DNA from: Actinobacteria bacterium HGW-Actinobacteria-6
Lineage (GTDB): Bacteria; Actinomycetota; Coriobacteriia; Anaerosomatales; Anaerosomataceae
Direction of reading: 5' to 3'
DNA: 54,156 bases
Assembly (NCBI GenBank): GCA_002841295.1
Contig: PHEU01000020.1
Coordinates: 1-54,156 of the forward strand
Shown: positions 2,343-37,958 of the stretch, in pieces
Layout: the number at the start of each line of letters is the position of its first letter
Position numbering within the stretch: the stretch's first letter is position 1
Notes under the pieces: generated by a model
The model's input: only the letters and a program-made list of their open reading frames with translations
What the model was told of the DNA's origin: nothing
Databases searched by the model: none
Made by a program: the position numbers and the translations under genes

Positions 2343-2390
2343 GTCTTGCGTTGAGGTACTGCCGCTAGTTCTCGGGGAGGGGTGCGGCCA

Positions 2391-3455: not shown

Positions 3456-3479
3456 GTAGGTCAGAAAGAAGGGGGCCTC

Positions 3480-4697: not shown

Positions 4698-4810
4698 CGA
4701 GTCACACAGTTTTCCTAATGTTTTGCTAAAGCTGGGCCAAAGCACGCCGATACACAACTTGTAGGCCAGTGGGGGACGTGGTCCCCCGGAAACCAAGGAG
4801 GTGGGCATCC

Positions 4811-5218: not shown

Positions 5219-5239
5219 GTCGATTCGATCTTCTTGAGC

Positions 5240-5276
5240 AAGGGCCGTCGGCATGTGCCGGCGGCCCTTAGCGTTT
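5240..5276 (+). terminator. Hairpin terminator after the pilin gene
   Basis: A 14-base arm at 5240-5253 and its partner at 5256-5269 match except for one G-T wobble, giving a long GC-rich stem starting 21 bases after the pilin stop. The following tract is only weakly T-rich (GCGTTTCC), so termination may be partial. It lies before the pilD promoter-like element. Confidence 0.75.
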
Positions 5277-5293
5277 CCTGCGGTCTTGTGAAC

Positions 5294-5302
5294 TGCTACC
5301 CT
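5294..5302 (+). promoter_or_regulatory. Extended -10 element before pilD
   Basis: TGCTACCCT matches the extended -10 pattern TGnTAnnnT and sits 34 bases before the pilD start, after the pilin terminator. No good -35 is visible, which extended -10 promoters can tolerate. The same pattern recurs before aroC, steA, murE, dxs and pilM in this window. Confidence 0.4.
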
Positions 5303-5335
5303 GTCGGAGTCAGATATCTCGGGAGGTATCACTTC

Positions 5336-6172: not shown

Positions 6173-6336
6173 GTCACGTGAACCGGTGAGGGTACAATTA
6201 CCGCTGGGAGCGGTTTGTTGAGTTGCCGTGAATCCCGTCACATGTACTTCAAGTGGGTGTCAACAGCTGCCGATAACGACATTATGAGCGGTCTCGAGTA
6301 ATCCGCTCGATTCGGCTATGAGCCGACGACTGGGGC
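6173..6336 (+). promoter_or_regulatory. Leader region before the minor pilin genes
   Basis: This 164-base gap has a -10-like TACAAT at 6193-6198 and a perfect 6-bp hairpin at 6200-6214 followed by TTTGTT, which could act as a weak terminator after pilD. A second perfect 6-bp hairpin with a 3-base loop lies at 6312-6326, ten bases before the next gene. I looked for conserved c-di-GMP riboswitch sequence and did not find it. A 19-codon frame from 6244 lacks a ribosome binding site. Confidence 0.3.
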
Positions 6337-7902: not shown

Positions 7903-7904
7903 GC

Positions 7905-8462
7905 ATGACCGCACGGACGCGACATGACGAAGGATTCACGCTCACGGAACTTATGGTCGTCGTGACTCTGCTCACCGTTATCCTTGGCGTTGCGTATCTC
8001 GGCTTCGACGTTGTACGCAATGGCAGCAATCTGAGCGACCGAATGGCCTACACCAGCCGAGAGGTTGGTTTTCCGCTCGATTATATGGAGCGGATACTTA
8101 TCCAGAACTACGGCTTCGACAACACGACCACCCCTACCAACTACAAAGTTACGGTGCTGACGGATCGTGACAACGATGACCACTCGGAGAGGTACATCTT
8201 CGAGGCTACCAGCGCAGGCACGCTGCGAGTCTTGTCCCTTGAAGAGCCTGAGACTGATTTAAAACCGTATGTGCTGTCGACCAAGAACAGTAACGTTGCG
8301 CAGGGCAAGTCGCTCTTCCGGTACTACGATGCGAACCTTACTGAGATCACGAACATGGGCAACGTCAGTAGCCAGGCTCGTAGCATGACGATGACGATCG
8401 TGACGACGTATGACGGACAGTCATTCTCCGATACGCGGCGGGTTTACTTCCGAAATCGGTAA
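7905..8462 (+). CDS. Prepilin-like minor pilin (PulG/PilW type)
   Basis: The short leader ends in Gly and is followed by FTLTELMVVVTLLTVILG, a class III prepilin signal with Glu at +5, then a hydrophobic helix and a roughly 150-residue soluble domain with no motif I can name. The protein of about 185 residues lies directly behind the large PilV-like gene (its ATG is two bases after that stop) and 24 bases before the next gene, so the three are likely co-translated. Position and size suit a PilW- or pseudopilin-like component of a tip complex. I chose ATG 7905 because AGGGA lies ten bases upstream; GTG 7896 would overlap the preceding gene. Confidence 0.8.
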   Translation: MTARTRHDEGFTLTELMVVVTLLTVILGVAYLGFDVVRNGSNLSDRMAYTSREVGFPLDYMERILIQNYGFDNTTTPTNYKVTVLTDRDNDDHSERYIFEATSAGTLRVLSLEEPETDLKPYVLSTKNSNVAQGKSLFRYYDANLTEITNMGNVSSQARSMTMTIVTTYDGQSFSDTRRVYFRNR

Positions 8463-8486
8463 ACGAAACACCAGGAGGTGTGCTTG

Positions 8487-10067
8487 ATGAACGCGAAGAT
8501 GCGCAGAATGCTCTCAGATGAGAGCGGCGTGGCGCTCATCACGGTGATTGGCGTGATGGTTGTCATCACGATTCTCGCAATCGGATCGTTCGTGCTGGCA
8601 CAGCAGACGTTACACGAGTCGAAGAAGATCGAGGATCAGACGAAGGCGTTTCGGTCAGCTAGTGGTGGGCTGGACATAGTGCTCACGACGTTCTCCGATG
8701 AGTCGACCGCCACTGACTTCCCGGTGTCGGGCTCCACACAGGATGGTTCTTACACGGTCACCCTCGAGGATCTAGGCGGGAGTGAGTACCGCCTGACTTC
8801 CACAGGCATCGGTACAGATGGCAGCGAAGAGAGGGTCAAGCAGCAGTTCTACTACATGAACCTGTGGAAGATGAACTTCGCCGGAACCGGCCCTCAATCC
8901 CTTATCAGTGGATCAGGCGGACTTGCTGGTACGTCCAACATCATCGGTCCCTTCTACATGAAGGGTAACCTTCCAATCGGGAACAACATGTCGTGCCTCG
9001 AAGGACCGTTCTTCGTCAAGGGTGGCAATATCACTGTAGGTTCCAGCGGGTCACTCGGGACGTCGAGCAAGTACGTCAAGGTGTACTGCGACGGCACCGG
9101 CAACCCGGCTGTTCCTGCGAACAACACGCAGGGCGGTGCCGGCGGGGTCTTTGTGACTTCAGTCTCACGCTCGGTTCCCGATATCACGTTGCCCACGATC
9201 GACGACGAGATGATGCTTCAGTACGCTTCGAAGGCGCAGGCGGAGTCGGTAGATAACCTGCTCGGAACACCAGAGAAGAACTTCGGCGCCAACCTGGAGA
9301 CCAGCAATGGCCAGGCGACCGACTACAGCATCATGAAGCCTCCCAGCACGACAACGTACACACGTGCGATGGCGCAGGCGACGCCGACGAACAGCAATTA
9401 CAAGTTCATAGGCAGTGCCGACGGTGTCATCTCGGCGCGAGGTGCGGGGACAACGGCGCTTACTATTGGTGGAAGGACATTCGGTGCGTGGGGCTCCGTA
9501 GTCACCACGAATGGCGTGTCGCTTGCCGCCGGGCCAGCTGGTGCCAACTACACACTGGCGAACGCATACGACGATTTTGCCTACGACAATGTGAACAAGC
9601 GCCTGTACATCTCCGGGACCGTGTTTGTAGATGGGCCGGTGACGATCGCTGAGAACATGACGTACGTCGGCAACGGAAGCATCGTCGCAAACGGTCCGAT
9701 CTATATCAACGGCACGCTCAAGCCATACGGCACGAACACTCAGGGCGAGCTGAACCAGTGGGCGCTTGGACTCGTCACGCCGGTTGACATGTATGTCAAC
9801 TTCACGAGCAACAACAACTACGCAAACAAGACAGCCGATGAAATCCGAGCGATTTCGCCAGACTTGGCCGGAGCGTTCTTCTGCCAGGGGACCGTGCACT
9901 TCGGCAACAACCCGCTTGTTCGCGGGTCGGTCATCGCTGGGAAGCTCGACTCCGGTGGTCCGAACATGTGTCTGGTCACTAACCCGATACTACCTACATA
10001 CTTGCCGGACTCGCTTCCGGGTGTTGACAAAGGGCTTCTCATGCCAGGATTGTGGACCCGTGGGTAG
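8487..10067 (+). CDS. PilX-like pilus assembly protein with long repetitive beta domain
   Basis: Residues near the start (ESGVALITVIGVMVVITILA) match the PilX-type N-terminus: a Gly before a hydrophobic helix, without the usual Glu at +5, as often seen in the PilX/GspK family. The rest of the 526-residue protein is Gly/Ser/Asn/Thr-rich. Its C-terminal half has short repeats of the style GTVFVDGPVTI, GSIVANGPIYI and GTVHFGNNPLV that suggest a beta-helix, comparable to bactofilin-like folds. It follows two prepilin-like genes and precedes pilM. ATG 8487 has CAGGAGGT about seven bases before it, better than GTG 8478. The function is inferred as a minor, possibly tip-located or surface-exposed, pilus component. 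Confidence 0.7.
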   Translation: MNAKMRRMLSDESGVALITVIGVMVVITILAIGSFVLAQQTLHESKKIEDQTKAFRSASGGLDIVLTTFSDESTATDFPVSGSTQDGSYTVTLEDLGGSEYRLTSTGIGTDGSEERVKQQFYYMNLWKMNFAGTGPQSLISGSGGLAGTSNIIGPFYMKGNLPIGNNMSCLEGPFFVKGGNITVGSSGSLGTSSKYVKVYCDGTGNPAVPANNTQGGAGGVFVTSVSRSVPDITLPTIDDEMMLQYASKAQAESVDNLLGTPEKNFGANLETSNGQATDYSIMKPPSTTTYTRAMAQATPTNSNYKFIGSADGVISARGAGTTALTIGGRTFGAWGSVVTTNGVSLAAGPAGANYTLANAYDDFAYDNVNKRLYISGTVFVDGPVTIAENMTYVGNGSIVANGPIYINGTLKPYGTNTQGELNQWALGLVTPVDMYVNFTSNNNYANKTADEIRAISPDLAGAFFCQGTVHFGNNPLVRGSVIAGKLDSGGPNMCLVTNPILPTYLPDSLPGVDKGLLMPGLWTRG

Positions 10068-10157
10068 GCTTGTATTGACAAAGAGTGTATGAGTGCGGTT
10101 CGATGATACGTGGTGTATGCACGGTTCGCGTGTGTAGTACTTGCGGCAGGCACTCTG

Positions 10158-10166
10158 TGCTATCCT
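10158..10166 (+). promoter_or_regulatory. Extended -10 element before pilM
   Basis: TGCTATCCT fits TGnTAnnnT, 75 bases before the pilM start, within the 173-base gap after the PilX-like gene. A separate perfect -35 hexamer TTGACA at 10075-10080 has no convincing -10 at 16-18 bases. Nothing else was recognised in this gap. Confidence 0.35.
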
Positions 10167-10240
10167 TGGCCTGGGGAAACGTCGCATAGCCACAGCAATA
10201 GTCGCAGTCTAGTCGTGACAGGGATTGAAGGAGGACTCCT

Positions 10241-11362
10241 TTGGGCTCGCTCTCCTTCGGCAGCAGTTCGTCGACAGTTGGCCTGGATATCGGAACCGAC
10301 CATGTGCGTGCCGTGCAGCTACGGCCCGCTGGCGCTGGTTTTGCGCTCACGGGTTATGGTGCGGTCGAAGTGCCCATGGGTGCGGTAGTCGAGGGCGAGA
10401 TTGTCGATATTGATGCCGTAACATCAGTTATACGCGAGGTCTGGCGTCGTTCCGGCATGCGGGGCAAGGACGTCTCTATCGGCGTGTCTAACCAGAAGGT
10501 TATCGTACGTCTGATTGACCTTCCGTTCATGGAGCGCGCGGAACTCGTCGGCGCCATTCAATATCAGGCGCAGGACTACATCCCGATGGCTATCGAGGAG
10601 TCGATTCTCGACTTCCAAATCATCGGCGACTATATGACGCCGAGCGACGAGCACATGATGGAAGTGCTGCTTGTGGCCGCGCATCGGGACATGATCAGCT
10701 CAACCGTTGCTGCCGTTGAGGGTGCAGGGCTGAGACTCAGTCAAATCGACGTGTCCTCGTTCGCAATCGTCCGATCGCTCATGGGACCTCATGGCATGTC
10801 CGATCTGGATGAATCTGGGTTTGCTACCGGTATCGTCCACATCTCATCAGGCATTACGAACATCGCGGTCGTCGAGAAGGGCGTTCCGCGGTTCAATCGC
10901 ATATCCTCGCTTGCAGGTAATCAATTCACGCAGGCGGTGGCTAACGTTCTCAACTTGACGTTCGACGAGGCGGAGCGTTTGAAGATTGCTGTTGGCCTAC
11001 CAGATATCGAGGGTGGAGCCTCTCAAGCTCTTCCTGACGTTGACCCTGCGATGGCTCCGATCGTCCAGGATTCACTGGAGCGCGAGGTCAATAAGTTCAT
11101 CGCTGAGGTTCGACGTTCACTCGATTATTACTTGACGCAGACATCGCAGGTTCGCACCATCCAGCGGATTCTTCTGACGGGGAGCGGTGCGCAGCTGAAG
11201 AACCTCGCAGGCTACCTCGAGAAGGGTCTGCAGGCGCAGGTTGTCATTGGAGATCCTCTCGCTCGGGTTCAGGTTCCCGCCAACCTCCAGCAGCAGGTGT
11301 TCGCCGATCGCATGGGTTGTGCAACCGCGATTGGCCTGGCGATGGGGGGGATTGAGCAATGA
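10241..11362 (+). CDS. pilM: Type IV pilus assembly protein PilM (actin-like ATPase)
   Basis: PilM is a cytoplasmic actin/FtsA-fold protein that binds the N-terminus of PilN and links the motor to the alignment complex. The 373-residue protein shows the first phosphate-binding loop GLDIGTDHVRAVQL, the YQAQDYIPM region typical of PilM, and a late nucleotide-binding loop ILLTGSGAQLKNL. The start is a TTG at 10241, supported by AAGGAGG six bases upstream; no ATG or GTG fits. It overlaps pilN by four bases and heads the pilM-pilN-pilO-pilP-like run. Confidence 0.93.
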   Translation: MGSLSFGSSSSTVGLDIGTDHVRAVQLRPAGAGFALTGYGAVEVPMGAVVEGEIVDIDAVTSVIREVWRRSGMRGKDVSIGVSNQKVIVRLIDLPFMERAELVGAIQYQAQDYIPMAIEESILDFQIIGDYMTPSDEHMMEVLLVAAHRDMISSTVAAVEGAGLRLSQIDVSSFAIVRSLMGPHGMSDLDESGFATGIVHISSGITNIAVVEKGVPRFNRISSLAGNQFTQAVANVLNLTFDEAERLKIAVGLPDIEGGASQALPDVDPAMAPIVQDSLEREVNKFIAEVRRSLDYYLTQTSQVRTIQRILLTGSGAQLKNLAGYLEKGLQAQVVIGDPLARVQVPANLQQQVFADRMGCATAIGLAMGGIEQ

Positions 11363-11955
11363 TGCGAATCAACCTTCTGCCCCCCGAGATACTCGAGAAG
11401 CGAAAGAGCGAACAGCGACTTGTCTATGTCGTCCTCGTTGCTGTGCTCGTCGTGATCGTCCTCGCGGGTGTGTTTGGATTCGCGAATCTACAGCTGAGCG
11501 AGAAGAATAAGCAGGTTGCAGCGCTTGAGCAAGACTTGGCTGAAAGGCAGACTCAAGCGCAAACGTTGGTCGTGTTCGAGTTGAATGCCGATGAGCTCGC
11601 GCGCCGAAAGGCGATTGCTGAGACCGCGCTTGCTGCGCGGATCAACTGGTCTCAGTTGTACGACGAGCTTTCGCTCGTCATGCCGACTGATATGTGGGTG
11701 ACAGTGATTGTTACTGACCAGACCGCCGGATTGCAGCTCGATGGCTACGCCGTGGACAGTGCCACCGACTCGCCGGATCTTGGGCACAAGTCAATCGCGA
11801 AGTTGCTCGTTCGGCTTGCTGATTTGGACCAACTCCAAGATGTGTGGCTCACGAACGCAGCCAAGACCACGCTGGCCGAGTCTTCTGCGATTCAATTCAG
11901 TGTTACCGCAGGCGTCGATGCGTCCATGTCCACGTCTTCGAGCGCCGGGAACTGA
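11359..11955 (+). CDS. pilN: Type IV pilus assembly protein PilN
   Basis: PilN is a bitopic membrane protein whose cytoplasmic tail docks in PilM and whose extracytoplasmic part pairs with PilO. The N-terminus MRINLLPPEI is the signature PilM-binding peptide. One transmembrane helix follows (about residues 21-43), then a coiled-coil-like stretch (about 47-75) and a ferredoxin-like domain to residue 198. The ATG at 11359 overlaps the pilM stop (ATGA), which implies translational coupling; a second ATG follows directly at 11362. Confidence 0.92.
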   Translation: MMRINLLPPEILEKRKSEQRLVYVVLVAVLVVIVLAGVFGFANLQLSEKNKQVAALEQDLAERQTQAQTLVVFELNADELARRKAIAETALAARINWSQLYDELSLVMPTDMWVTVIVTDQTAGLQLDGYAVDSATDSPDLGHKSIAKLLVRLADLDQLQDVWLTNAAKTTLAESSAIQFSVTAGVDASMSTSSSAGN

Positions 11956-11964
11956 GGTGGCAAG

Positions 11965-12609
11965 ATGAATCGAGTCTCAGCGCAGACACAGATGATTATC
12001 GCCGGTGTCGTCGTCGTATTGATCGTGGTCGCGGCGCTCTTCCTCGGCATACTGCCGACGTTTGAGAAGGCGGGCTCGGCCGGCACGCGTATCAACGAAT
12101 TGACCGCCAGCATTCAGGCGGAGCAGTCGGTGGTGGATCGTCGCCTGAGTTACAAGTCACAGTCTGCACAGACTGAGGTTGAATTGATCAGGGTAGCCGG
12201 CGAGGTTCCGGAAACTCCGGACCTGCCTTCGCTTATCATCAACTTGCAGGATACTGCCAATGACGCAGGTCTTGAATTCGCGCAAATCAGTCCTGAGGCA
12301 CCGAATGCGATCGTTGGTGCCGATGGACTACCGGCCGGCTACAGCTCGCTTCCGATCGTCGTCAGAGTCAAAGGCAAGTGGGCTGACGTCATCGAGTATG
12401 TTCGGCTGCTAGGCAAGTACACACGGGGCGTTCGAATCACGAATGCGACCATGACCTATGTCAGTGCGACCGAAAACACAGATGGGTACGTTGAAGCGAA
12501 CATCAAACTTGAGGTCTATACCATGTCCGTGATCAACGTGAGCCAGTCTGTCCCCGCCGTTCCGTCTGCGCCGGCAACGCCGTCCGCAGACGCGCAGCCC
12601 TCGCAGTAG
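11965..12609 (+). CDS. pilO: Type IV pilus assembly protein PilO
   Basis: PilO partners PilN in the membrane alignment complex. The 214-residue protein has one N-terminal transmembrane helix (about residues 8-30), a predicted coiled coil (about 35-75) and a globular ferredoxin-like domain with the PilO-like GKWADVIEYVRLLGKYTRGVR region. A Pro/Ala-rich tail of about 25 residues follows. It starts nine bases after pilN and ends 18 bases before the next gene. The assignment rests on position and layout plus weak family resemblance, as PilO sequences are poorly conserved. Confidence 0.85.
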   Translation: MNRVSAQTQMIIAGVVVVLIVVAALFLGILPTFEKAGSAGTRINELTASIQAEQSVVDRRLSYKSQSAQTEVELIRVAGEVPETPDLPSLIINLQDTANDAGLEFAQISPEAPNAIVGADGLPAGYSSLPIVVRVKGKWADVIEYVRLLGKYTRGVRITNATMTYVSATENTDGYVEANIKLEVYTMSVINVSQSVPAVPSAPATPSADAQPSQ

Positions 12610-12627
12610 CCGACGGAAGGGATCGCC

Positions 12628-13227
12628 GTGTCCGAAGAGTTTGTAGTTCCCGGGACTGAGCAGCCTCCTGTGGTGGCCGCTGAAGTGTCGTCGGCCAAGA
12701 AGACCAACAAGGGGCTACTCGTCGCGCTTGGAGCAGTGGCCGTTCTGGCGATAATCGCAGCGATTGTTGTGCTGCTCGTGTTACCGCTGTTTACGGTTGT
12801 CGACGAAGTCGAGGTACGGGTACCCGAGCAGGGTGCCCCGCAGAATCCGGTTGTCACTTCTGAAGAAATCGAGTCTACCGAGGCTGCGGACAGAGTCACC
12901 AATGATGAGGTCTTCACATTCCGCGATATCTTCAAGCCGTTGCTTGGGGCAGTAACGGTTGGAACAACCACTGCCACCGAGAGCACAACTGAAACGGTTG
13001 AGATTTCCGAGTACGCTGCTGGCACCTTGTATTTGACCGCAGTCGGCAGCGAGAACGGTGAGCAATTCGCGAGTTTCGTTTGGAATGGCGAGGATTATGT
13101 GCTCGGCGAAGGCGACATCATCGATGGCACACCCTGGAAAGTACTCGATATCCGGACGAGTGATGTCGTGATGCTCTATGGTGACCAGCAGGTGGTTCTC
13201 TCTGTCGGTCAAGGTATCAGCAAGTAG
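12628..13227 (+). CDS. PilP-like extracytoplasmic pilus protein
   Basis: The 199-residue protein has a short cytoplasmic N-terminus, one transmembrane helix (about residues 29-54), an acidic Thr/Glu-rich linker and a C-terminal beta domain. The domain is preceded by VFTFRDIFKPLL, reminiscent of the RDPFxPL motif of PilP. The end, with GEGDIIDGTPWKVLDI and VVLSVGQG, resembles the HQ/GspC-like fold of PilP. In diderms PilP contacts the PilQ secretin; no secretin gene is present here, so this protein would complete a PilMNO complex under a thick wall. The GTG start has GGAAGGGA nine bases upstream. It is the last gene before a terminator. The PilP name is tentative. Confidence 0.6.
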   Translation: MSEEFVVPGTEQPPVVAAEVSSAKKTNKGLLVALGAVAVLAIIAAIVVLLVLPLFTVVDEVEVRVPEQGAPQNPVVTSEEIESTEAADRVTNDEVFTFRDIFKPLLGAVTVGTTTATESTTETVEISEYAAGTLYLTAVGSENGEQFASFVWNGEDYVLGEGDIIDGTPWKVLDIRTSDVVMLYGDQQVVLSVGQGISK

Positions 13228-28034: not shown

Positions 28035-29156
28035 ATGCGGTTTCAGGGCATTGCCCGGCTAGACAGGCGTACAAAAGACCTCGTGAAGCGCCTCGGCCGT
28101 AATGACATTGCGATCATCGATCATGTCGACATGGACCGCGTGAGCGCCGAGTCGCTGCTTGAGAGCGGCGTCGAGGTGGTCGTGAACGCGTCGCGGTCCA
28201 TCTCCGGCACGTACCCAAACCTCGGTCCGCTGCTGCTGGTGCGTGGGGGCGTGCGCTTACTTGACGACGCAGGCGAAGGCGTCTTTGAAAACGTCAAAGA
28301 GGGTGATGTCGTCGAGGTCGTTGGCGACGACATCCTTATTGACGGCAAGGTTGTCGCATCGGGTAGCCGGTTGACCGTCGATATCGTCGAGCGGGCTATG
28401 GAAGATGCAAAGTCCGGCCTTGACCAGCAACTCGAGAACTTCGCGCGCAACACGCTTGAGTACATCTCCCGCGAGAAGGCGCTGCTGACTGAGGGCGTCT
28501 CGGTCCCGGTCACACGGACGCTGATCGCGGGTCGACAGGCGCTCGTAGTTGTCCGCGGATACGACTACAAAAAGGATTTGCAGGCGCTTCTTCCGTATAT
28601 CCGAGAGGTCAAGCCTGTTCTTATCGGTGTTGACGGCGGAGCAGACGCGATCCGTGATTTTGGCATGAAGCCCGACATCATCGTCGGAGATATGGATTCG
28701 GTGAGCGACGAGGCTCTCAAGAGTGGTGCAGAACTCATCGTGCATGCGTATACCGATGGCCGCGCACCGGGCGAGAGTAGGCTTGATGAGCTGGGCGTCG
28801 CCGGAGTCGCCTGGGCGATGGCGGGCACCAGTGAGGACCTCGCGCTTCTGCTCGCGTACGAGTCGGGCGCCGAGTTGATCGTTGCTGTCGGTACCCACGC
28901 CAATCTGATCGAACATCTAGATAAGGGTCGAAAGGGCATGGCTTCGACGTTCCTCGTCAGGCTCAAGGTCGGCCCCAAGCTCGTAGACGCCAAGGGCGTG
29001 AACAAGCTCTACCGCGCGTCGGTCAAGCCTTCGCAGCTCGTCGTGCTGGTCGCGGCCGCGCTGACCGTTGTTTCTACCGCTATCATGATTTCACCGCAGG
29101 CCAGGAACCTCGTGTCGTTGCTGCTACTCAAGCTGCGCGCGACGGTCGGCCTCTAG
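28035..29156 (+). CDS. steA: SteA-like cytokinetic ring protein
   Basis: The 373-residue protein belongs to the actinobacterial SteA family, which has a thiamin-pyrophosphokinase-like fold without that enzyme's role. In Corynebacterium SteA and SteB form a complex at the division site that promotes daughter-cell separation. The motif IGVDGGADAIRDFGMKPDII and GDMDSVSDEAL mark the TPK-like catalytic-fold domain (about 175-300). One hydrophobic helix near 335-355 likely anchors it to the membrane, facing the cytoplasm. Position after recN and before steB matches Mycobacterium (Rv1697) and Corynebacterium. Naming it thiamin pyrophosphokinase would be an error. Confidence 0.85.
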   Translation: MRFQGIARLDRRTKDLVKRLGRNDIAIIDHVDMDRVSAESLLESGVEVVVNASRSISGTYPNLGPLLLVRGGVRLLDDAGEGVFENVKEGDVVEVVGDDILIDGKVVASGSRLTVDIVERAMEDAKSGLDQQLENFARNTLEYISREKALLTEGVSVPVTRTLIAGRQALVVVRGYDYKKDLQALLPYIREVKPVLIGVDGGADAIRDFGMKPDIIVGDMDSVSDEALKSGAELIVHAYTDGRAPGESRLDELGVAGVAWAMAGTSEDLALLLAYESGAELIVAVGTHANLIEHLDKGRKGMASTFLVRLKVGPKLVDAKGVNKLYRASVKPSQLVVLVAAALTVVSTAIMISPQARNLVSLLLLKLRATVGL

Positions 29157-29169
29157 TCCGGGAGGACGC

Positions 29170-30042
29170 ATGTACAACATCAGATACCATCTCGCATCGC
29201 TGGTGGCGGTCTTTCTGGCGCTGACCGTGGGACTCGTGCTGGGAACCGTGGTTGCCGAGCGGGGCACCCTCGACAACCAGTCGACTACGCTTGTTGATGA
29301 CCTCCAGCAGCAGTTTGCCCAGATTCAAACGGATAACAACGCGCTGCGTGACGGGCTGGAGCGGGATCGCGCGTTTGCCGACGACGTTGTACCTGCGTTG
29401 ACGTCCAATGCTCTCGCGGGCAAGAACATCGCGATTCTCGTTAACGGCGGCCGGAGCAATGGCCTGAATGCGACCATGGCTGCGATCGAGGAAGCGGGCG
29501 GCAGTCCAATCGTCTTCACGTTCGCAAGCTCTGATCTAGGTTTTGACTTGCATGTACCCGAGGGCATTTCGGAGCTCCTCGGCGAGGGGTTCACTGAGTC
29601 GACATCGGCACCGGCCACAGTAGCGTTCAAGAACGCGATTGCCGATGCCCTGGCTGCTGAGCTCCGGCAGTCGGGACCGCGACCGATACTCGACTTGCTT
29701 GCGAAGAGCGCCGCATTGAGCCTCAGTTCGCCGACAGACTTCGGTGCCGTGGATGCGTGCGTGCTCATGGCGTCGTTTGACGGTCAGCCTGATGAGATTT
29801 CCTCGAAGATCGCTGGCGCGCTTGATGTTCGCGGTGCGGTCGTGGTTGGTGCGGAGGCGACGAATCAGGCGACCGGAATTGCCGTTGAAACAGTCGACCT
29901 GGGCTTCTCTGCAGTGGATCACGTAGATACGCCTCAGGGAGCATACTCGCTCGTGTGGCTGCTCTCTGGTCGCGCAAGCGGCTACTACGGGATCGGTGCC
30001 GGTGCTGACGCGGTTTACCCGACGATTTCAAAGCAGGGCTAG
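29170..30042 (+). CDS. steB: SteB/MctB-like envelope protein
   Basis: The 290-residue protein has one N-terminal transmembrane helix (about residues 10-27), then a coiled-coil stretch (about 38-65) and an extracytoplasmic domain, the layout of the DUF3186 family. Members are called MctB (proposed copper transport, Mycobacterium Rv1698) and SteB (SteA partner in division, Corynebacterium). Adjacency to steA favours the SteB role; no copper-binding Cys/His cluster is obvious. The ATG has GGGAGG six bases upstream. Its stop overlaps that of the convergent glycosyltransferase by four bases (CTAG). Confidence 0.85.
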   Translation: MYNIRYHLASLVAVFLALTVGLVLGTVVAERGTLDNQSTTLVDDLQQQFAQIQTDNNALRDGLERDRAFADDVVPALTSNALAGKNIAILVNGGRSNGLNATMAAIEEAGGSPIVFTFASSDLGFDLHVPEGISELLGEGFTESTSAPATVAFKNAIADALAAELRQSGPRPILDLLAKSAALSLSSPTDFGAVDACVLMASFDGQPDEISSKIAGALDVRGAVVVGAEATNQATGIAVETVDLGFSAVDHVDTPQGAYSLVWLLSGRASGYYGIGAGADAVYPTISKQG

Positions 30043-30719
30043 CGGCGCTCCACCCCGAGTCGCACGAGGGCAATGAGAACGTGTACGAACTGGCGTCCGC
30101 GGTGCATGAAGCCCGCGAGGTCCTTCCCTGTGGCCGCATGCGACATTGTGGCGGGCACCTCGAGCAGCCGAAGCTTCGCTCGAAGCACGCGGACACTCAG
30201 CGCTACTTCCGCGCCGTAACCTGGGGCAAACGGTTCGGCCGCTACCCATGCCCGACGGTTGAGGGCGCGCTGTCCCGAGAGTGGGGCCGTGGCCTGGAAT
30301 CCTCCGCCGAGAACTGCGATTCCGTGCCGGGCGAGGCCTTTGACGAGGCCGAATCCCCCGGAGCCTGCAGGGCGGGGAAGGACAGCAACCGTCATGTCGG
30401 CGGTATCCGACAGCACCGGGCCCAGCAGTGCATCGGCTTCGCTCGCGCTGCTTGCGAGGTCTGCATCCAGCAGCAAGACGATGTCGGCATATGCTCGAAC
30501 TGCGTCGAGACCTGCTTGAAGTGCTCCGCCCTTGCCGACGTTTCCGGGCAGCGCGATCACCTCGGCACCGGCATCGCCGGCGAGTCGTGCGGTGTCGTCG
30601 TCAGATCCGTCGTCGATAACGACCACTCGCGTCACTCCCGCAACGCCCAGCGCCGCCTCTACTGTGGCCGAGATGCGCTCGGCTTCGTTGTGGGCGGGGA
30701 TGAGTGCGATGACGTTCAT
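30039..30719 (-). CDS. GT2 family glycosyltransferase
   Basis: The 226-residue protein is a GT-A fold glycosyltransferase: IALIPAHNEAERI at the start, VVVIDDGSDDDT, VGKGGALQAGL, and the metal-binding ILLLDADL. No transmembrane segment follows the catalytic part, unlike DPMS-type enzymes with C-terminal helices, although HVLIALVRLGV at the end may touch the membrane. The donor and acceptor cannot be told. Its start overlaps the murJ stop (ATGA), so it is probably made from the murJ transcript, which suggests a lipid-linked envelope glycan. A longer frame to 31232 is antisense-like extension into murJ and is rejected. Confidence 0.85.
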   Translation of the reverse strand: MNVIALIPAHNEAERISATVEAALGVAGVTRVVVIDDGSDDDTARLAGDAGAEVIALPGNVGKGGALQAGLDAVRAYADIVLLLDADLASSASEADALLGPVLSDTADMTVAVLPRPAGSGGFGLVKGLARHGIAVLGGGFQATAPLSGQRALNRRAWVAAEPFAPGYGAEVALSVRVLRAKLRLLEVPATMSHAATGKDLAGFMHRGRQFVHVLIALVRLGVERR

Positions 30720-32314
30720 CGCGCGCTCCGGGCGCGACCGATGATGCGAGAGAATCGCTTCGCGCCGGTCTTGACCTCGGTCACACCCGCGAGCGCGGCA
30801 AGTCCGTACGTCGTGCCGAGCCCGGCCAGGCCGGCGAGCGCAAGCTGAAGCAAGAATCCGGCGCCGAGCGCCAGAGGAGACGTTAGCGCGACAACACCGA
30901 GAGCGACCGCTGCGCCAGCGAGAGATGCCGCGAGCACGCGTGCCACGGTCCACGCGATTCCGCGGATATCGTATCCGCCTATGTGGCGGCGGAGTAGCAG
31001 CCCGAGTATCGTCAGGTGGACGATGAAGAAGACGCCGTCGGCGATCGGGATGCCCTTCAGGCCTATGCCCGCCCAGCCTGCGATGCCACCTGTGAGAATC
31101 GCGTAGAGGCTTATCTGCAGTATCGACGCCCCGATGTTCGTGAACATAGGGGTTCGAGTGTCCTGTAGTGAGTAGAACGTCTTGAGGACGAACATGTAGC
31201 CGGCAAAGAAGAAGAGCCCGGCCGCCCACCATATGAGAACGTCTGCGACTACCGGCACATCCGTTGCCTTGAAGCTGCCCGCGCGGTAAAGCCGGATGAC
31301 CGGCTCGGCAAGCACCACCAGGAGCGTCGCCAGCGGGATGATGAGTACGGCTGTGGAGCGGAATCCGCTCGAGAACATCGCCTTGAATGCGGGCCAGTCG
31401 CGTTTCTCGGCAAGCGCGGAGAGTTCAGGGAAGACTGCCGTTGCCAGCGCGACCGCAAAGATGCCGTAGGGGAGCTGATAGAACATCCAGGCGTAGGCGA
31501 GCACGGCTGGACCCTTGTCGCTTGCCTGGAAGGCGTACGCGTTACGGAACGAGATGGTCACGAGGTTCGTGATCGTGTAGATCAGCAGCGGTCCCATCTT
31601 GTGCGCGATAGTACGCAGCGCCGGGTGCTTCCAGTCGATTCTCGGCGTGTAGCGAATCCCGAGCTTGATGAGGCTTGGGATCTGCACGACGGTCATCGCA
31701 ACGACGCCGAGTGTTGTGCCCACGGCCAGACCGGTAATCGCAAGCTGCGGGTTGCTGTCTTTGAGCGGCACGTAGAAGCCGAGTAGCGTCACAATGACGA
31801 CGAGGTTGTTGAAGATCGGGGCAACTGCCGGCCAGAAGAACTTCCGGTACGAGTTCAGGATGCCCGTCGTGACCATACCCGCGCCGTAGAAGACAACCTG
31901 GATAGCGAAGAAGCGGAAGAGGTACACCGCAAGCTGCGCTTTCTCGGGGGAGATGCGGAACGTTTGTGTGCGCACGAACGGCTCGGCCCAGATGGTGCCG
32001 ATGAATGCGACGATGCCGAGGACGAGCACGGTGATGTTGAAGACGTAACTCGCGAACTTCCATGCCTCATCCTCGCCGTCGCGCTGCATCCGCTCGATGA
32101 ACAGCGGGATGAACACTGATGAGAGGACCCCGCCGGCGGCGAGTTCGAAGATCATATTCGGGATGTTGTTGGCGACGCTGTAAGAAGCCGAGAGAGCAGT
32201 CACACCGAGTGCGACGGCCATCGCCCATGTGCGCACGAACCCGGTGATGCGCGATGCTGCAGTGGAGATCGACATGATCGCGGTGGAGCGCGCTATCGAA
32301 GGCTGAGCGGCGAT
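30716..32314 (-). CDS. murJ: Lipid II flippase MurJ (MviN family)
   Basis: MurJ moves lipid II across the membrane. The protein has about 14 hydrophobic segments, the N-terminal SRITGFVRTWAMAVALG region, the NNIPNMIFELAAGGVLSSVFIP motif and the FYSLQDTRTPMFTNI motif of the family. The start is a puzzle: the conserved SIARSTAIMS N-terminus begins upstream of the first ATG (32275), and no ATG, GTG or TTG fits. GAGGAGGG at 32318-32325 is followed after ACC by ATC at 32312-32314, used here as a likely non-AUG start giving 532 residues. A GTG at 32428 would lie upstream of the likely promoter. Its stop overlaps the glycosyltransferase start. Confidence 0.88.
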   Translation of the reverse strand: MAAQPSIARSTAIMSISTAASRITGFVRTWAMAVALGVTALSASYSVANNIPNMIFELAAGGVLSSVFIPLFIERMQRDGEDEAWKFASYVFNITVLVLGIVAFIGTIWAEPFVRTQTFRISPEKAQLAVYLFRFFAIQVVFYGAGMVTTGILNSYRKFFWPAVAPIFNNLVVIVTLLGFYVPLKDSNPQLAITGLAVGTTLGVVAMTVVQIPSLIKLGIRYTPRIDWKHPALRTIAHKMGPLLIYTITNLVTISFRNAYAFQASDKGPAVLAYAWMFYQLPYGIFAVALATAVFPELSALAEKRDWPAFKAMFSSGFRSTAVLIIPLATLLVVLAEPVIRLYRAGSFKATDVPVVADVLIWWAAGLFFFAGYMFVLKTFYSLQDTRTPMFTNIGASILQISLYAILTGGIAGWAGIGLKGIPIADGVFFIVHLTILGLLLRRHIGGYDIRGIAWTVARVLAASLAGAAVALGVVALTSPLALGAGFLLQLALAGLAGLGTTYGLAALAGVTEVKTGAKRFSRIIGRARSAR

Positions 32315-32352
32315 GGTCCCTCCTCGGCAGAGTGTTGAGTGGTGCCGGGTCG

Positions 32353-32358
32353 ATTGTA
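32353..32358 (-). promoter_or_regulatory. Possible -10 of murJ
   Basis: On the minus strand TACAAT lies about 39 bases before the proposed murJ start. No clear -35 is present. If used, transcription starts near 32346, downstream of the alternative GTG at 32428. Confidence 0.35.
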
Positions 32359-32409
32359 GCTGAGAGATGCCGCTTACCGCTCGGCCAACACGAGCGCGTT
32401 GTGTTCCGG

Positions 32410-32415
32410 TATACT
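32410..32415 (+). promoter_or_regulatory. Possible -10 of the polytopic lipoprotein operon
   Basis: TATACT matches the -10 consensus at five of six positions, about 100 bases before the GTG at 32518 and divergent from the murJ element. No clear -35 is seen. Confidence 0.35.
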
Positions 32416-32517
32416 GGCGGTCGGGCACCCCGAAACGCGAATCGCGGCGGGTGCAGCTCCCTGAGCCGGTAGTTCCGGCTTAACGCATGTCCGAAAACGA
32501 CCGACAGGGAGGTGAGC

Positions 32518-34245
32518 GTGAAGCAAAGAACCGTCATCGCGGTGGTCCTACTCGCGATCATGCTCGCAGCCCTCAGCGGCTGTGCCAGCGTCCCTGTTGC
32601 TCCCTCGACGACCGCACATCCGGTCGTCTTCATCGTTACGCCTCCACTCACGTGGAGCGATATCTCGTCTGATGAGACGCCCGCCCTCACGCGCATGGCC
32701 GAGGATGCGGCTATCGGTGCGGTCGTGTCGAAGGACCCTGCGTCGTCTGTAGCCACACTGTCCGATCAAGGAGCAGGCACCGCTCAGCCGATCACTACCA
32801 TCACAGTGACAGGAAGTCCCGCCACTATCGATCGCGCAATCGCAGAGCAGGTCTCGAGCGCGCCCGCAGGAGCCGCGATAGTCGTCGTCTCGGCGGCCGG
32901 CGCCGCGACTCCGGGGCATGGTGCCTCAGCGGGGATCGTGCTCGTTTCGGGCGGTGGCTACGGATCCGGACTACTGACGAGCGTTTCGACCCGTCGCGGG
33001 GGCCTTGTGACCGATTCTGACGTCGCCGCGACTGTCGGGGCTATCGCAGGCGCCACTGACGCGCTGAAGGCCGGAATCGCAGCCTCGGTCCTTGATGATG
33101 GTCGGATGGCGGCAGATAGAGTCGCATGGCTAGCGCGGGTTTCGGTATTCCTCACTGCGGTCGAGAAGATTCGCGTCCCCATCTTCAACGTCTACACGGC
33201 CGCCATGGTCGTGCTACTGCTCGGCGGATGGTTCGTAGCCGAGCGATACCGCACTGCAGCGAAGTATGCGTACTGGTCGCTCGTTCTCAGGCGTTTCATC
33301 GTGCTCGGGCTTGTGTTTCCCGTCGGTGGCACGCTCCTGCACGTGGCCGATCGGCTCCCCGACACACCACAACGGGTCGTGTCGCTGCTTCTCGCTGCCT
33401 CCGGCCTCCTCTGGATATTCGCCGAGTTCGCCTGGCACAAGTGGGGGACGGCCGGTGCGATCGCCTTCTCCGGTCTCGCTGCGGCGCTCATACTCGGCAT
33501 CGATCAGCTGGCCGGGGCGACACTTTCGCTCTCAAGCATCTTTTCGTATTCGCCGCTCATCGGCTTCCGCTTCTTCGGCATCGGCAATGAAGGCGCTGCG
33601 ATCCTGTTCGGTGGCGCGCTCGTCGGATTGTCACTTGAACTTGATGCCGCCAAGAGCTCCGCGCGCGTTCGCCGTATCTCGATCGCTGGTGTCGGCGCAG
33701 CTGCCGTCATCGTGTGTGCTGCACCATTCTTCGGCGCGAACGTCATCGTCGCCGTATGGGGCACGGCGACCTTCGCCGCGTTCTGGCTTGCTGCCGAGAG
33801 ACGCCGCATCCGCACAGCAGACATGCTTTTCGCGCTCGCGCTCGTGGGCGCAGCGTTTGCCGCGATGGTCGCGCTCGACCGCTACACGGGTGGAACGCAC
33901 ATCGGGCGCGCCGTTGGCGAGGTCGCTGGTGGCGGGCTTGGGGCGTTGCTTGCCGAGCGGTTCGCGACGAGCCTCAGGATCTTCATGGACTCGCCGTTGC
34001 CTGCCATCGTGCTCATCATTGCTACCATTCTCGCGTACATGCGCCTGCGTCCCCGCGGGCGTATGGCGGTCGTGCTCGGCAGGTACCCGGTATTCGCCGC
34101 AGCTATGACTGCAGGCCTCCTTGGCGGCTTCATCGGAGCGCTGACCGAGGACTCGGGCGTTGTCGTGCTGGCGCTCGTTATCACCTACCTGGTTGGTGGA
34201 CTGGTGGCGCTCATGCTTGAGCCAGACGGGAGTGTGGTCGCATGA
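32518..34245 (+). CDS. Polytopic membrane lipoprotein of unknown function, possible degenerate AlkP-like domain
   Basis: The 575-residue protein begins with a signal sequence ending in a lipobox (AALSGC), so it may be lipid-anchored after cleavage. Residues about 35-200 look like a small extracytoplasmic domain; its opening HPVVFIVTPPLTWSDI recalls alkaline-phosphatase-like folds, but catalytic metal ligands are not evident. From residue 215 on there are about ten transmembrane segments, with conserved-looking loops FRFFGIGNEGA and ALTEDSGVVVLAL. I recognise this layout from uncharacterised actinobacterial proteins but know no function. The GTG at 32518 has AGGGAGG five bases upstream. Its stop overlaps the next gene, an MraY/WecA-type transferase, suggesting a joint role in a lipid-linked glycan pathway (inference). 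Confidence 0.65.
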   Translation: MKQRTVIAVVLLAIMLAALSGCASVPVAPSTTAHPVVFIVTPPLTWSDISSDETPALTRMAEDAAIGAVVSKDPASSVATLSDQGAGTAQPITTITVTGSPATIDRAIAEQVSSAPAGAAIVVVSAAGAATPGHGASAGIVLVSGGGYGSGLLTSVSTRRGGLVTDSDVAATVGAIAGATDALKAGIAASVLDDGRMAADRVAWLARVSVFLTAVEKIRVPIFNVYTAAMVVLLLGGWFVAERYRTAAKYAYWSLVLRRFIVLGLVFPVGGTLLHVADRLPDTPQRVVSLLLAASGLLWIFAEFAWHKWGTAGAIAFSGLAAALILGIDQLAGATLSLSSIFSYSPLIGFRFFGIGNEGAAILFGGALVGLSLELDAAKSSARVRRISIAGVGAAAVIVCAAPFFGANVIVAVWGTATFAAFWLAAERRRIRTADMLFALALVGAAFAAMVALDRYTGGTHIGRAVGEVAGGGLGALLAERFATSLRIFMDSPLPAIVLIIATILAYMRLRPRGRMAVVLGRYPVFAAAMTAGLLGGFIGALTEDSGVVVLALVITYLVGGLVALMLEPDGSVVA

Positions 34246-35282
34246 CCGACGCCCTTCAGGCACTGCTAGTGCCCATGCTCTCACTCGTCGGATGCGTGGT
34301 TGTTCCGACACTCTTCATGAAGATGCTGGTGCCCTCCCTCGAGCGGGGACGCAGCGTCTTGAACTTCCGCGGTCGCGAGGTCTTTCCCGGGCTCGGCATC
34401 GTCTGGATCATCTGGGCGGGCTGCGCGATCATCACGGGCGTGGGGTCAGCGGCACTTGGAACTCAGTCGGTGATGATGATGCTCACCCTGCTCGGTCCGC
34501 TCGCGCTCGTTGCGGCGGCACTCGGCCTGATCGACGACGCGTACGGCACTTCCGCCGATCGCGGTTTCCGCGGCCACTTCCGCGCGCTAGGTCATGGACG
34601 AGTGACCACCGGCATGCTGAAGCTCATCGGTATCGGCGCGGCATCACTCGTGGTTGCAGCGATTCTCGGCCAGATAGCGCTTTGGGGTGTCGGGGCCTCG
34701 ATTCTCGGCAGGGTCGTGGGCACCTTACTTGCCGCCGCGGCGATAGCGTTCACGGCGAACCTCGTGAACCTGACCGATCTGAGGCCGGGTCGCGCTCTCA
34801 AGGTGTATTTGATCCTCGTGACGCTCGGCAGCGCGCTCGTGCTCAGGGCCGTGTTTGTAGGCTTCGAGCTGGGCTCAAGTGACGCTTCGCTCGCGGTCAT
34901 CTTCACTGGCTCGCTCTACTTGGCGCTCATCGGCCCGGTTCTTGCGGTATGGCGATTCGACCTCGGGGAGCGCGGGATGCTTGGCGATGCCGGAGCCAAC
35001 GCCATGGGGGCTGTTGCTGGTGCGCTTATCGTCATCGCCATGCCGATGTGGACGCTCATCATCTACGCAATCGTCTTGCTCGGTCTGAATCTAGCTGCCG
35101 AGAGGGTTTCATTCTCGGTGGTTATCGAGCGAACGCGGGTGCTGAGGTGGTTCGACATACTCGGCCGACTGCCGGAAGACGCGTCCGGAGCACATAATGC
35201 GGAATCGTCCGCAGGTTCACCGTCTGATGTCGGTGACTCGCGGTATCATCTTGAAGAAGACCACGAGACAAGGGAAGTATGA
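34242..35282 (+). CDS. MraY/WecA-type polyprenyl-phosphate sugar phosphotransferase
   Basis: The 346-residue protein is a PNPT-superfamily enzyme, which moves a sugar-1-phosphate from UDP to a polyprenyl phosphate on the cytoplasmic face. Family motifs are visible: LGLIDDAYG with the Asp pair near 98-99, [24 protein letters not shown] near 175, and [11 protein letters not shown] near 248. About nine to ten transmembrane segments are present. It is distinct from the true MraY whose gene starts at 53884, lacks that protein's HxGTPTMGG element, and has a 35-residue hydrophilic tail. The substrate is unknown. The start overlaps the preceding gene by four bases; the end overlaps an alternative pyrG start. 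Confidence 0.85.
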
Positions 35283-35290
35283 GGGACAGT

Positions 35291-36904
35291 ATGGCGACAA
35301 AGCACATCTTCGTGACTGGTGGCGTGGTCTCATCGCTCGGCAAGGGAATCACGGCGGCTTCACTCGGCCGACTCCTGAAGTCGCGCGGACTCAAAGTAAC
35401 CATCCAGAAGCTCGATCCGTACTTGAACGTGGACCCGGGTACGATGAGTCCGTTCCAGCACGGCGAGGTCTTTGTGACCGACGACGGGGGAGAGACCGAC
35501 CTCGACTTGGGCCACTACGAGCGGTTCATCGATGAGTCACTTTCGCGTGACTGCAACGTCACAGCTGGTTCGGTCTATCAGACGCTTATCGCCAAAGAGC
35601 GCCGTGGCGATTTCCTCGGTGGCACCGTGCAGGTCATCCCGCACGTCACCAACGAGATCAAGGATCGCATCAATCGCCTGGCCGAGCAGACGAAGCCCGA
35701 CGTTATCATCACCGAAGTCGGCGGCACTGTCGGCGACATCGAGTCCCTGCCGTTCATCGAAGCGATTCGTCAGCTTCGCAAGGACAAAGGCCGCGACAAC
35801 GTCATCTACATCCACGTGACACTTGTGCCGTACATCGCGGCATCATCCGAGCTCAAGACGAAACCAACCCAGCACTCGGTCAAGGAACTGCGCTCGATAG
35901 GTATCCAGCCCGACTTCATCGTGTGCCGTTCAGACAGGCCTATTGATGCGGGTATCCGACGCAAGATCGGCCTGTTCTGCGACGTGGAGCCATCCGCGGT
36001 CATCTCGGCCATGGACGCTGCCTCGATCTATGAAGTTCCGCTGACGCTGCGTGGGCAGGGTCTCGATGCGATGGTCATCGAGCGGCTCGGCCTCGAGTGC
36101 GGCGAGCCTGACATCACCGAGTGGCAGGCGTTCGTGGACCATCGCCGTTCGATCGTCGATGAGGTCGACATCGCACTCGTTGGCAAGTACGTACAGCTCC
36201 CGGATGCCTATCTCTCGGTCACCGAGGCGCTCAGTCACGCTGGAATCTTCCACGACAACAAGGTGAACGTACACTGGGTGGATGCCGAGAGTCTCACACC
36301 AGAAGAGGTGGATGAGGTTCTTGCAGACTTCGATGGCATCCTCGTACCGGGTGGATTCGGCATCCGAGGCATCGAGGGCAAGATTCGCGCTGCTCGGTAT
36401 GCTCGAGAGAACCTGGTGCCGTATTTCGGTATTTGCCTGGGAATGCAGGTGGCTGTTGCCGAGTTTGCCCGTCACGTCGCGGGACTTGAGGGTGCCAACT
36501 CGGGCGAATTCGACCCGGTCACACCTCACCCGGTCATCGACCTGATGCGTGAGCAGGTCGACGTCAGTGACATGGGAGGTACGATGCGTCTCGGCGCGTA
36601 CCCATGCACGGTCGTTCCGGGCACCAAGGGCTACGAGGCGTACGGTGAAGAAGTAATCTACGAGCGCCATCGTCACCGCTATGAGGTCAACAACGCATAT
36701 CGTCAGCAGCTCGTTGATGCCGGCATGATTGTGAGCGGCGTGTCGCCCGATGGAAAGCTCGTCGAAATGATCGAGCTGCCGGAGCATCCATGGTTTCTTG
36801 GCCATCAGGGCCATCCAGAATTCAAGAGCCGCCCAACGCGGCCCGCACCGCTGTTCAGGGGTTTTGTTGGCGCCGCAGTGGCGTACCGCAAGGCGCGCGG
36901 GTAG
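35291..36904 (+). CDS. pyrG: CTP synthase
   Basis: PyrG aminates UTP to CTP with glutamine and ATP. The 537-residue protein opens with [20 protein letters not shown]. It carries the synthetase domain (to about 265) with [20 protein letters not shown] seen in order, and a class I glutamine amidotransferase domain with the nucleophile Cys near 382 in [10 protein letters not shown] and a C-terminal His-Glu pair in HPEF. ATG 35291 with GAGGGA close upstream gives the standard start; ATG 35279 overlapping the preceding stop is also possible. A TATCAT at about 35244 could be an internal -10. Position between steAB and xerD is the actinobacterial order. Confidence 0.97.
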
Positions 36905-36928: not shown

Positions 36929-37399
36929 ATGAGACTGGTCTGGGCCGAGGTCGTATGTATTACGAGCGTTCGCGCCGGTGTGCAGCGGCTCGGCGTTGTG
37001 CTTGACGACGGAACAACAGGCGATGCGCTGCTGTACACGACGCTTTGTGCGTCGTGCACATCCGGAGATCGAGTGCTGCTGAACGCTACTGCCGTCGACT
37101 TGTCCCTTGGTACCGGCGGGCTGCACTTCGTGGTTGCGAAGGCTGGATGCGGAGTCTCTTTTGATGAGGCGTCTCGACGTACTGGCTGTCGAAGAGGCCG
37201 AGAGTCCGCATGCCTCGGTCATGGCGACTGCCGTTTCACTGGAAGGGATGCCCGTCGTGTGCTGCGGGCTTCACTCTCAAGTGCTTCCTGTTGCTGCTGC
37301 TATCAAGCAGTCCGACCCCGGGTTGCGCATTGTGTACGTGATGACAGATGGCGCGTCTTTGCCGCTGGCGTTCTCAGATCTCGTTCCGGGCATGCTTGA
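36929..37399 (+). CDS. DUF3866-like protein, 5' part (frameshifted)
   Basis: The first ~75 residues match the start of DUF3866 proteins as I recall them: WAEVVCITSV, RLGVVLDDG, DRVLLNATAVDLSLGTGG and LHFVVAKAG. After about codon 76 (near 37157) this frame turns into Arg/Cys-rich sequence that looks non-coding, while the homology continues in the +1 frame from about 37158. The open frame runs on to 37399 by chance. The ATG has GCGGAG eight bases upstream and lies 24 bases after pyrG. It should be read together with the next entry as one gene split by a +1 shift. Confidence 0.6.
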   Translation: MRLVWAEVVCITSVRAGVQRLGVVLDDGTTGDALLYTTLCASCTSGDRVLLNATAVDLSLGTGGLHFVVAKAGCGVSFDEASRRTGCRRGRESACLGHGDCRFTGRDARRVLRASLSSASCCCCYQAVRPRVAHCVRDDRWRVFAAGVLRSRSGHA

Positions 37400-37958
37400 A
37401 GCGGGACTTATCGGTGAGACGATTTCTGCCGGTCAAGCGTTCGGCGGTGGACTTGAAGCGGTCACGCTTCACTCGGCACTCCTTGCAGCGCGTCATGTGT
37501 GTGACGCCGATGTCGCGATTGTGGCGCTTGGCCCGGGAATCACGGGAACCTCAACGCCGTTTGGCCATGGGGGCATAGCGCAAGGCGAAGCGATCAATGC
37601 GGTCTGCGCGCTCGGCGGCCGTGCCGTGGCTGTACTGAGGCTGTCATTCGCCGATTCGAGAGTGCGGCATCGCGGCGTGAGCCACCACTCCCTGGCTGCG
37701 CTGGCGACTATTGCGCTGGGAAGCGCGACCATTGCGGTGCCAACGCTGCCACAGCCTCAGTCTGCTGAAGTCGACAACGCGCTACAGGAGTCAGGCGTGT
37801 GGAGCAGGCACGCCCGCGTCGATGTGCCTGCGGCGATTCTACCCGACACTGGCGAGCTCCGAATGCGCTCCATGGGACGTTCGCCTGATGACGATCCTGC
37901 GTTCTTCCTGGCCGCTGCCGCTGCCGGCACTGTTGCAGCAGACCTATGCGGTCGCTGA
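37164..37958 (+). CDS. DUF3866-like protein, 3' part
   Basis: This frame carries the main body of a DUF3866-type protein: MRRLDVLAVEEAESPHASV, LEGMPVVCCGLHSQV, IVYVMTDGASLPLAFSD, GQAFGGGLEAVTLHS, VAIVALGPGITGTSTPFGHG, and RHRGVSHHSLAAL. The enzymatic role of the family is not known to me. ATG 37164 is the first start near where homology resumes, but it has no ribosome site, and the proper N-terminus is in the preceding frame. A run of T at 37159-37162 (CTCTTTTG) marks the likely shift point. Independent translation, a programmed shift, a true mutation and a sequencing error are all possible. The frame is otherwise intact to its stop. Confidence 0.75.
   Translation: MRRLDVLAVEEAESPHASVMATAVSLEGMPVVCCGLHSQVLPVAAAIKQSDPGLRIVYVMTDGASLPLAFSDLVPGMLEAGLIGETISAGQAFGGGLEAVTLHSALLAARHVCDADVAIVALGPGITGTSTPFGHGGIAQGEAINAVCALGGRAVAVLRLSFADSRVRHRGVSHHSLAALATIALGSATIAVPTLPQPQSAEVDNALQESGVWSRHARVDVPAAILPDTGELRMRSMGRSPDDDPAFFLAAAAAGTVAADLCGR

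Follow-up and report, generated by a model that had tools for sequence, protein, structure and literature searches.

Genes that travel with steA and steB from Clostridia to Actinomycetota suggest an undescribed lipid-linked sugar

The 54,156-nucleotide contig PHEU01000020.1 of Actinobacteria bacterium HGW-Actinobacteria-6 (assembly GCA_002841295.1), the whole of which is referred to here as the window, carries a block of envelope genes in the order recN-steA-steB-<GT2<murJ-P5>P6>pyrG. Besides steA and steB, which encode SteAB, a regulator of wall hydrolysis during cell separation (PMC6705760, PMC12977500), the block encodes a GT2-family glycosyltransferase (hereafter GT2), the flippase MurJ, a membrane protein with a predicted role at the outer face (P5) and a protein with the MraY/WecA fold (P6). 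Each of these genes was present as described in an initial annotation made from the sequence alone. We found that this envelope gene set travels with SteA and SteB from Clostridia to Actinomycetota, which suggests that it serves an undescribed lipid-linked sugar. In the reading that we favour, with a probability of about 0.58, P6 and GT2 synthesize an undecaprenyl-linked saccharide, the chemistry of which is tied to the control of cell separation by SteAB, and P5 handles that saccharide outside the membrane.

Matches to NF040608 and PF11382, both above cut-off and in adjacent genes, mark the products of steA and steB as clear orthologues, as judged from their sequences, of the cell-separation regulator. 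The same gene set and neighbourhood were kept in 20 of 20 genomes sampled across the window's class, a degree of conservation far above chance. Among 296 Actinomycetota genomes, 116 encode P6, 126 encode a SteA that scores above cut-off, 103 encode P5 and 84 encode an orthologue of GT2. P6 occurred together with SteA in 111 of its 116 genomes, and GT2 was accompanied by both P6 and SteA in all of the genomes that encode it (84 of 84). Of the 111 genomes with P6 and SteA, 67 encode both GT2 and P5, 17 encode GT2 but not P5, 26 encode P5 but not GT2, and one, which is incomplete, encodes neither. Co-occurrence of all the genes, which the initial annotation had proposed as a check, was thus mostly seen: it holds for GT2 with P6 and SteA and for P6 with SteA, whereas P5 and GT2 come and go and P5 is often located elsewhere.

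A scan extending beyond the phylum to 85,000 species returned 80 loci, mostly from Clostridia (Clostridioides difficile, Desulforamulus, Thermoanaerobacterium, Tepidanaerobacter and Romboutsia) with others from Armatimonadota and Actinomycetota. Sufficient upstream sequence was available for 64 of these, and 59 of the 64 had the order steA-steB-GT2-P6. P5 was present in 12 of 12 P6-bearing genomes sampled via the Clostridial and Armatimonadota loci, usually unlinked and sometimes in two copies. Because it is located elsewhere in most Clostridia, we rejected P5 as a constant member of the block. Its neighbours at other loci included murJ, a GT4 gene, ddl, parB, murA and a gene for a VTT/DedA-domain protein. 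In three genomes (G255, G276 and G325), GT2 lies beside P5, far from steAB.

Gene fusions connect the same proteins. GT2 and P6 form a single protein in two genomes of one genus (G213 and G227) and in a third genome (G299), with one shared join point at which the first P6 helix is gone; in the G213 protein, PF00535 and PF00953 both score above cut-off. In another genome (G447), an in-frame fusion joins GT2 to a P5 whose ectodomain is reduced, yielding a protein of 802 amino acids (locus L251, positions 7611-10019). All the genomes compared are assemblies, many of them from metagenomes, so each fusion taken alone might be an artefact; with three independent cases, this is unlikely. Synteny, co-occurrence and the GT2-P6 and GT2-P5 fusions bear out the proposal of the initial annotation that a PNPT-type transferase, GT2 and an outer-face protein form a set that is associated with division proteins. 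They also supersede its caution that the two strands of the block were linked by proximity only, with the murJ part of the link the weakest.

An AlphaFold2 model of P6 from 61 sequences reached a predicted local distance difference test (pLDDT) score of 88.2. Fold comparison of this model by VIA plus Foldseek gave VIA Z scores of 21.6 to MraY (272 residues, root-mean-square deviation 4.2) and 19.7 to DPAGT1, with the next unrelated structure at 6.3. Residues D98, D99, G248, D249 and G251 are invariant across the 61 sequences, and the DD, N..N..D and GD-G motifs are invariant over three phyla. When aligned with MraY and the TagO-like protein of the same genome, P6 retains DD, N..NL.D and GD.G; the canonical NxxNxxDGLDGLA and HHH/HIHH motifs, present in both of those proteins, are absent. 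DGLDGLA is replaced by DLRPGRA followed by Lys, with an invariant Arg/Lys, and both motif changes are shared by the homologues in Actinomycetota and Clostridia. Its MraY/DPAGT1-like fold and the motifs that it keeps place P6 in the PNPT superfamily, and the DLRPGRA substitution and the missing histidine motif set it apart from both MraY and WecA/TagO.

P6 itself matched no Pfam or NCBIfam family, PF00953 included; a fused homologue (L094) reached 28.5 bits against PF00953, above the cut-off of 27, and a weak additional PF00953 match above cut-off was found in 10 of the 12 genomes sampled via the Clostridial and Armatimonadota loci. Neither P6 nor P5 matched anything in PHROGs, and window-class profiles of the two proteins found no solved relative at useful E-values. 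The initial annotation had described P6 as a second MraY/WecA-type transferase; it is in fact the third such gene in the genome, which also carries MraY (on contig C69, beside murD) and a TagO/WecA-like gene (on contig C27, beside upp). Among the loci examined, none has a complete cluster for teichoic acid or arabinogalactan next to P6; elsewhere, only the genome's other PNPT genes were located.

GT2 is most similar among solved structures, by profile match to the PDB, to GpgS (1.7e-21), DPMS (1.1e-18) and the GtrB protein sll0501 (7e-14), and it also resembles ArnC. It is 36-53% identical to the P6-adjacent GT2s of Clostridia and Actinomycetota. Its PF00535 score is above cut-off, the residues of its DxD motif (D85 and D87) are invariant, and it has a conserved C-terminal motif of its own (H-x-[EA]TGR-x-x-x-GF-x-HRG-x-Q); no NCBIfam cut-off was reached.

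The genome encodes no full-length MurJ besides that of the window, and many loci carry steA-steB-GT2-P6 with no murJ. A dedicated role as the pathway's flippase, which the initial annotation had assigned to it, is not supported, because this sole MurJ would be the ordinary lipid II flippase, which may or may not also move a lipid made by P6 and GT2. Its uniqueness, and its position beside P5 in many lineages, would also fit an alternative in which GT2, P6 and P5 modify ordinary peptidoglycan precursors, acting on or next to lipid I/II, with MurJ flipping the product and SteAB coupling it to wall hydrolysis. Unlinked copies of P5 that adjoin ddl, murA or parB point the same way. However, P6 should start a lipid of its own because it is a PNPT protein additional to the genome's MraY, and many steA-steB-GT2-P6 loci have neither murJ nor P5 nearby. 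We consider this alternative unlikely.

P5 has about 10 hydrophobic segments after residue 220 and belongs to no Pfam or NCBIfam family. Its membrane domain, which has no known match, is rich in conserved polar residues: the conserved columns (R353, G356, G358, N359, E360, G408, A409, N410, H463, E546, D547 and S548) form the motifs R-x-x-G-x-GNE, GAN, H and [EN]DSG. Homologues are mostly 700-850 amino acids long, and the window's genus and a few relatives are short of about 200 ectodomain residues. The initial annotation had described an unfamiliar lipobox protein with about ten helices; the LSGC lipobox and about 10 hydrophobic segments are indeed present in the window, but a lipobox occurs in only a minority of relatives, mostly those that also have a shortened ectodomain, and was rejected as a defining feature. 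At loci L245 and L246, GT2 and P6 are separated by a pair of divergent P5 paralogues; at L245, a GT4 gene lies alongside one of the pair.

The intact P5 ectodomain shows a weak resemblance to the AlkP superfamily. Almost all matches of its profile to the PDB were to AlkP-superfamily proteins, all of them weak (best, a phosphonate monoester hydrolase at 0.0031; others included iPGM, sulfatases and LtaS), and Pfam returned SGSH_C, Sulfatase, Metalloenzyme and Phosphodiest, also weakly (best 4e-5, in one homologue). Outgroup homologues begin with a VILIVIDG-like motif, the Asp of which is replaced in the window's class (VVLAPY or similar). The two-metal ligand set of AlkP enzymes (the first-motif Asp and DH) is not conserved. 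An AlkP-like site in P5, as raised in the initial annotation, has some profile support but lacks metal ligands, most clearly in the window's lineage. AlphaFold2 gave a pLDDT of 49.6 for a full-length homologue from 5 alignment rows, and that model was not used for a fold search. P5 may be described, weakly and from its sequence, as an unnamed family with an AlkP-like ectodomain, degenerate and shortened here, plus about 10 helices. One class relative (G004; locus L242, positions 7310-9316) encodes a P5 homologue with no detectable P6 or GT2 and no SteA above the family cut-off, and it is possible that P5 can function on its own.

These observations could be combined as follows. At the inner membrane face, P6 would transfer a sugar-phosphate to undecaprenyl phosphate, with a nucleotide sugar as donor, and GT2 would add a second sugar to the product, so that the two would form an inner-face module. 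SteA, which binds UDP or GDP, may read the nucleotide sugar used by this pathway or the nucleotide that it releases, and would pass that state through SteB to a cell-separation hydrolase. P5, with its putative AlkP-derived ectodomain and helical core, may handle the flipped lipid outside, either by transferring its glycan or by acting as its receptor. The product may be a glycan carrier that acts at the septum, as the initial annotation had supposed.

Several observations weigh against this proposal. In P6, the histidine motif is missing and DGLDG has lost its second Asp, so catalysis could be altered or lost. In P5, AlkP metal ligands are not kept, the DH motif being absent from the whole alignment; with these missing and a model of such low confidence, 'transferase' is a guess. 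P5 and GT2 vary independently of each other: P6 is accompanied by GT2 but not P5 in 17 genomes, and by P5 but not GT2 in 26. The tallied genomes are related, so their counts are not phylogenetically independent and Fisher p values for them overstate independence. Finally, Mycobacteriales-like genomes have steAB at the corresponding position but none of P6, GT2 and P5; in these genomes and one other, pyrG directly follows steB, with the block missing from an otherwise unchanged neighbourhood. SteAB can therefore work without the other three proteins. A tentative extension of our proposal, which we hold with considerably less confidence, is that SteAB ancestrally sensed an undecaprenyl-linked saccharide of its own, which P6 and GT2 produced and P5 handled outside. 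This previously unknown lipid, common to Clostridia, Armatimonadota and Actinomycetota, would license cell separation; Mycobacteriales would have kept the sensor and lost the lipid.

The altered active site of P6 also raises a different explanation, in which P6 has a regulatory role or no catalytic activity: as a PNPT relative, it would bind the lipid carrier or a nucleotide and, with GT2 and SteA, constitute a sensor rather than a pathway. Loss of the histidine motif and the second Asp across the whole family favours such a role, and the binding of nucleotide by SteA (PMC12977500) and the resemblance of the P5 ectodomain to a degenerate AlkP domain are in keeping with it. Yet the three remaining P6 motifs are invariant over three phyla, as is the DxD of its partner GT2 among the sequences aligned, which suggests selection for catalysis, and we regard a pure sensor as quite improbable. 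That the genes share no functional link and sit together only through an old, conserved recN-pyrG-xerD neighbourhood is now very unlikely: the surrounding genes are conserved too, and murJ and P5 come and go, but the fusions, the absence of any GT2 without P6, the P5-GT2 pairs at distant loci and the fact that Mycobacteriales-like genomes lack the whole block but retain the genes around it all speak against it.

SteAB controls daughter-cell separation in mycobacteria and corynebacteria, and the cytoplasmic ligand of SteA is still sought. Corynebacterium SteA is stabilised by GDP or UDP, and not by ADP or triphosphates, according to a 2026 paper that describes the ligand as unidentified and places clostridial steAB downstream of spo0A (PMC12977500). 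The word 'glycosyltransferase' does not occur in the text of that paper. In the open-access literature, we found no account of P6, the window's GT2 or P5, and none of the SteAB papers found there connects SteAB with this glycosyltransferase or a PNPT protein. A tie between SteAB and a pair of enzymes predicted to use nucleotide sugars, extending from Clostridia to Actinomycetota, would provide concrete candidate ligands for SteA and a testable source of its signal. Our results also add two widely conserved, unnamed envelope families, P5 and the MraY-like P6 with its altered active site, both represented in well-studied bacteria, Clostridioides difficile and Thermoanaerobacterium among them. 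The GT2-P5 fusion of G447 would be a useful construct for probing the link between these two proteins. One contig titled as a Bifidobacterium breve metagenome-assembled genome (L221, CAMDCC010000299.1) carries steA-steB-P6-pyrG and is probably mis-binned; Bifidobacterium is reported to lack SteAB (PMC12977500).

Table 1. Features of the steA-pyrG region, in window coordinates.
Feature	Coordinates	Strand	Evidence
steA, cytoplasmic component of the cell-separation regulator SteAB, with a TPK-like domain and a membrane helix at the C terminus	28035..29156	+	NF040608 487 bits, PF12555, PF04263
steB (MctB family)	29170..30042	+	PF11382 120 bits; single N-terminal helix
GT2-family glycosyltransferase, 226 amino acids, GpgS/DPMS-like, no membrane helix	30039..30719	-	PF00535 64 bits, 2e-17
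murJ, 519 amino acids from likely ATG	30716..32275	-	TIGR01695 311.9 bits versus equivalog cut-off 235.55
236-bp intergenic region separating the divergent murJ-GT2 and P5-P6-pyrG units	32276..32511		
P5, predicted signal peptide and lipobox, shortened AlkP-like ectodomain, ~10-helix membrane domain	32512..34245	+	
P5 lipobox LSGC, residues 21-24	32572..32583	+	Sequence
P6, divergent MraY/WecA-fold (PNPT) putative transferase	34242..35282	+	AlphaFold2 model and fold search
P6 D98-D99, DD motif of PNPT enzymes, kept	34533..34538	+	Alignment with MraY and the TagO-like protein of the same genome
P6 N173-K187, NxxNLxDLRPGRAxK replacing canonical NxxNLxDGLDGLA	34758..34802	+	Alignment
P6 G248-N253, GDxGxN, GD-G motif kept	34983..35000	+	Alignment
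pyrG	35279..36904	+	NF003792 870 bits

Four-nucleotide overlaps (ATGA) join GT2 to murJ, P5 to P6 and P6 to pyrG. The murJ open reading frame runs to 32428, and the start at 32275 is favoured by the length of relatives (519-524 amino acids). The intergenic region showed no match to a promoter consensus, and sigma-70-like promoters in the region did not exceed chance expectation. After pyrG, a DUF3866 gene is split into two frames (36929-37399 and 37107-37958, together spanning 36929-37958); its homologue is intact (~355 amino acids or more) in class relatives, and the split reflects a frameshift or a sequencing error. Near the start of the window, a run of open reading frames (672-13227) resembles, by eye, a type IV pilus cluster (pilB/T/C, pilins and pilM-O-like genes).

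Each part of the block can be set beside a known system. P6 shares its fold and its DD, N..N..D and GD-G motifs with MraY, WecA, TagO and DPAGT1 (PNPT, PF00953), but differs from them in DLRPGRA for DGLDGLA, in lacking HHH/HIHH and in the absence of a Pfam match. The closest solved relatives of GT2, namely glucosyl-3-phosphoglycerate synthase, archaeal DPM synthase and GtrB-type enzymes, are distinguished from it by its own C-terminal motif and its obligate company of P6 and SteA. Like AlkP-superfamily membrane proteins such as LtaS, a group that also includes the glycosylphosphatidylinositol ethanolamine-phosphate transferases, P5 homologues join a predicted extracellular domain, weakly AlkP-like by profile, to several membrane helices; unlike them, they do not conserve metal ligands (for example, DHG), their membrane domain has no counterpart, and the window's lineage has lost the first-motif Asp (across the class) and part of the ectodomain (in the genus). 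The window's steA and steB are orthologous to those of Corynebacterium and Mycobacterium and share their recN-steA-steB-...-pyrG neighbourhood (PMC6705760, PMC12977500), but where Mycobacteriales-like genomes have nothing between steB and pyrG, the window and Clostridia add GT2 and P6.

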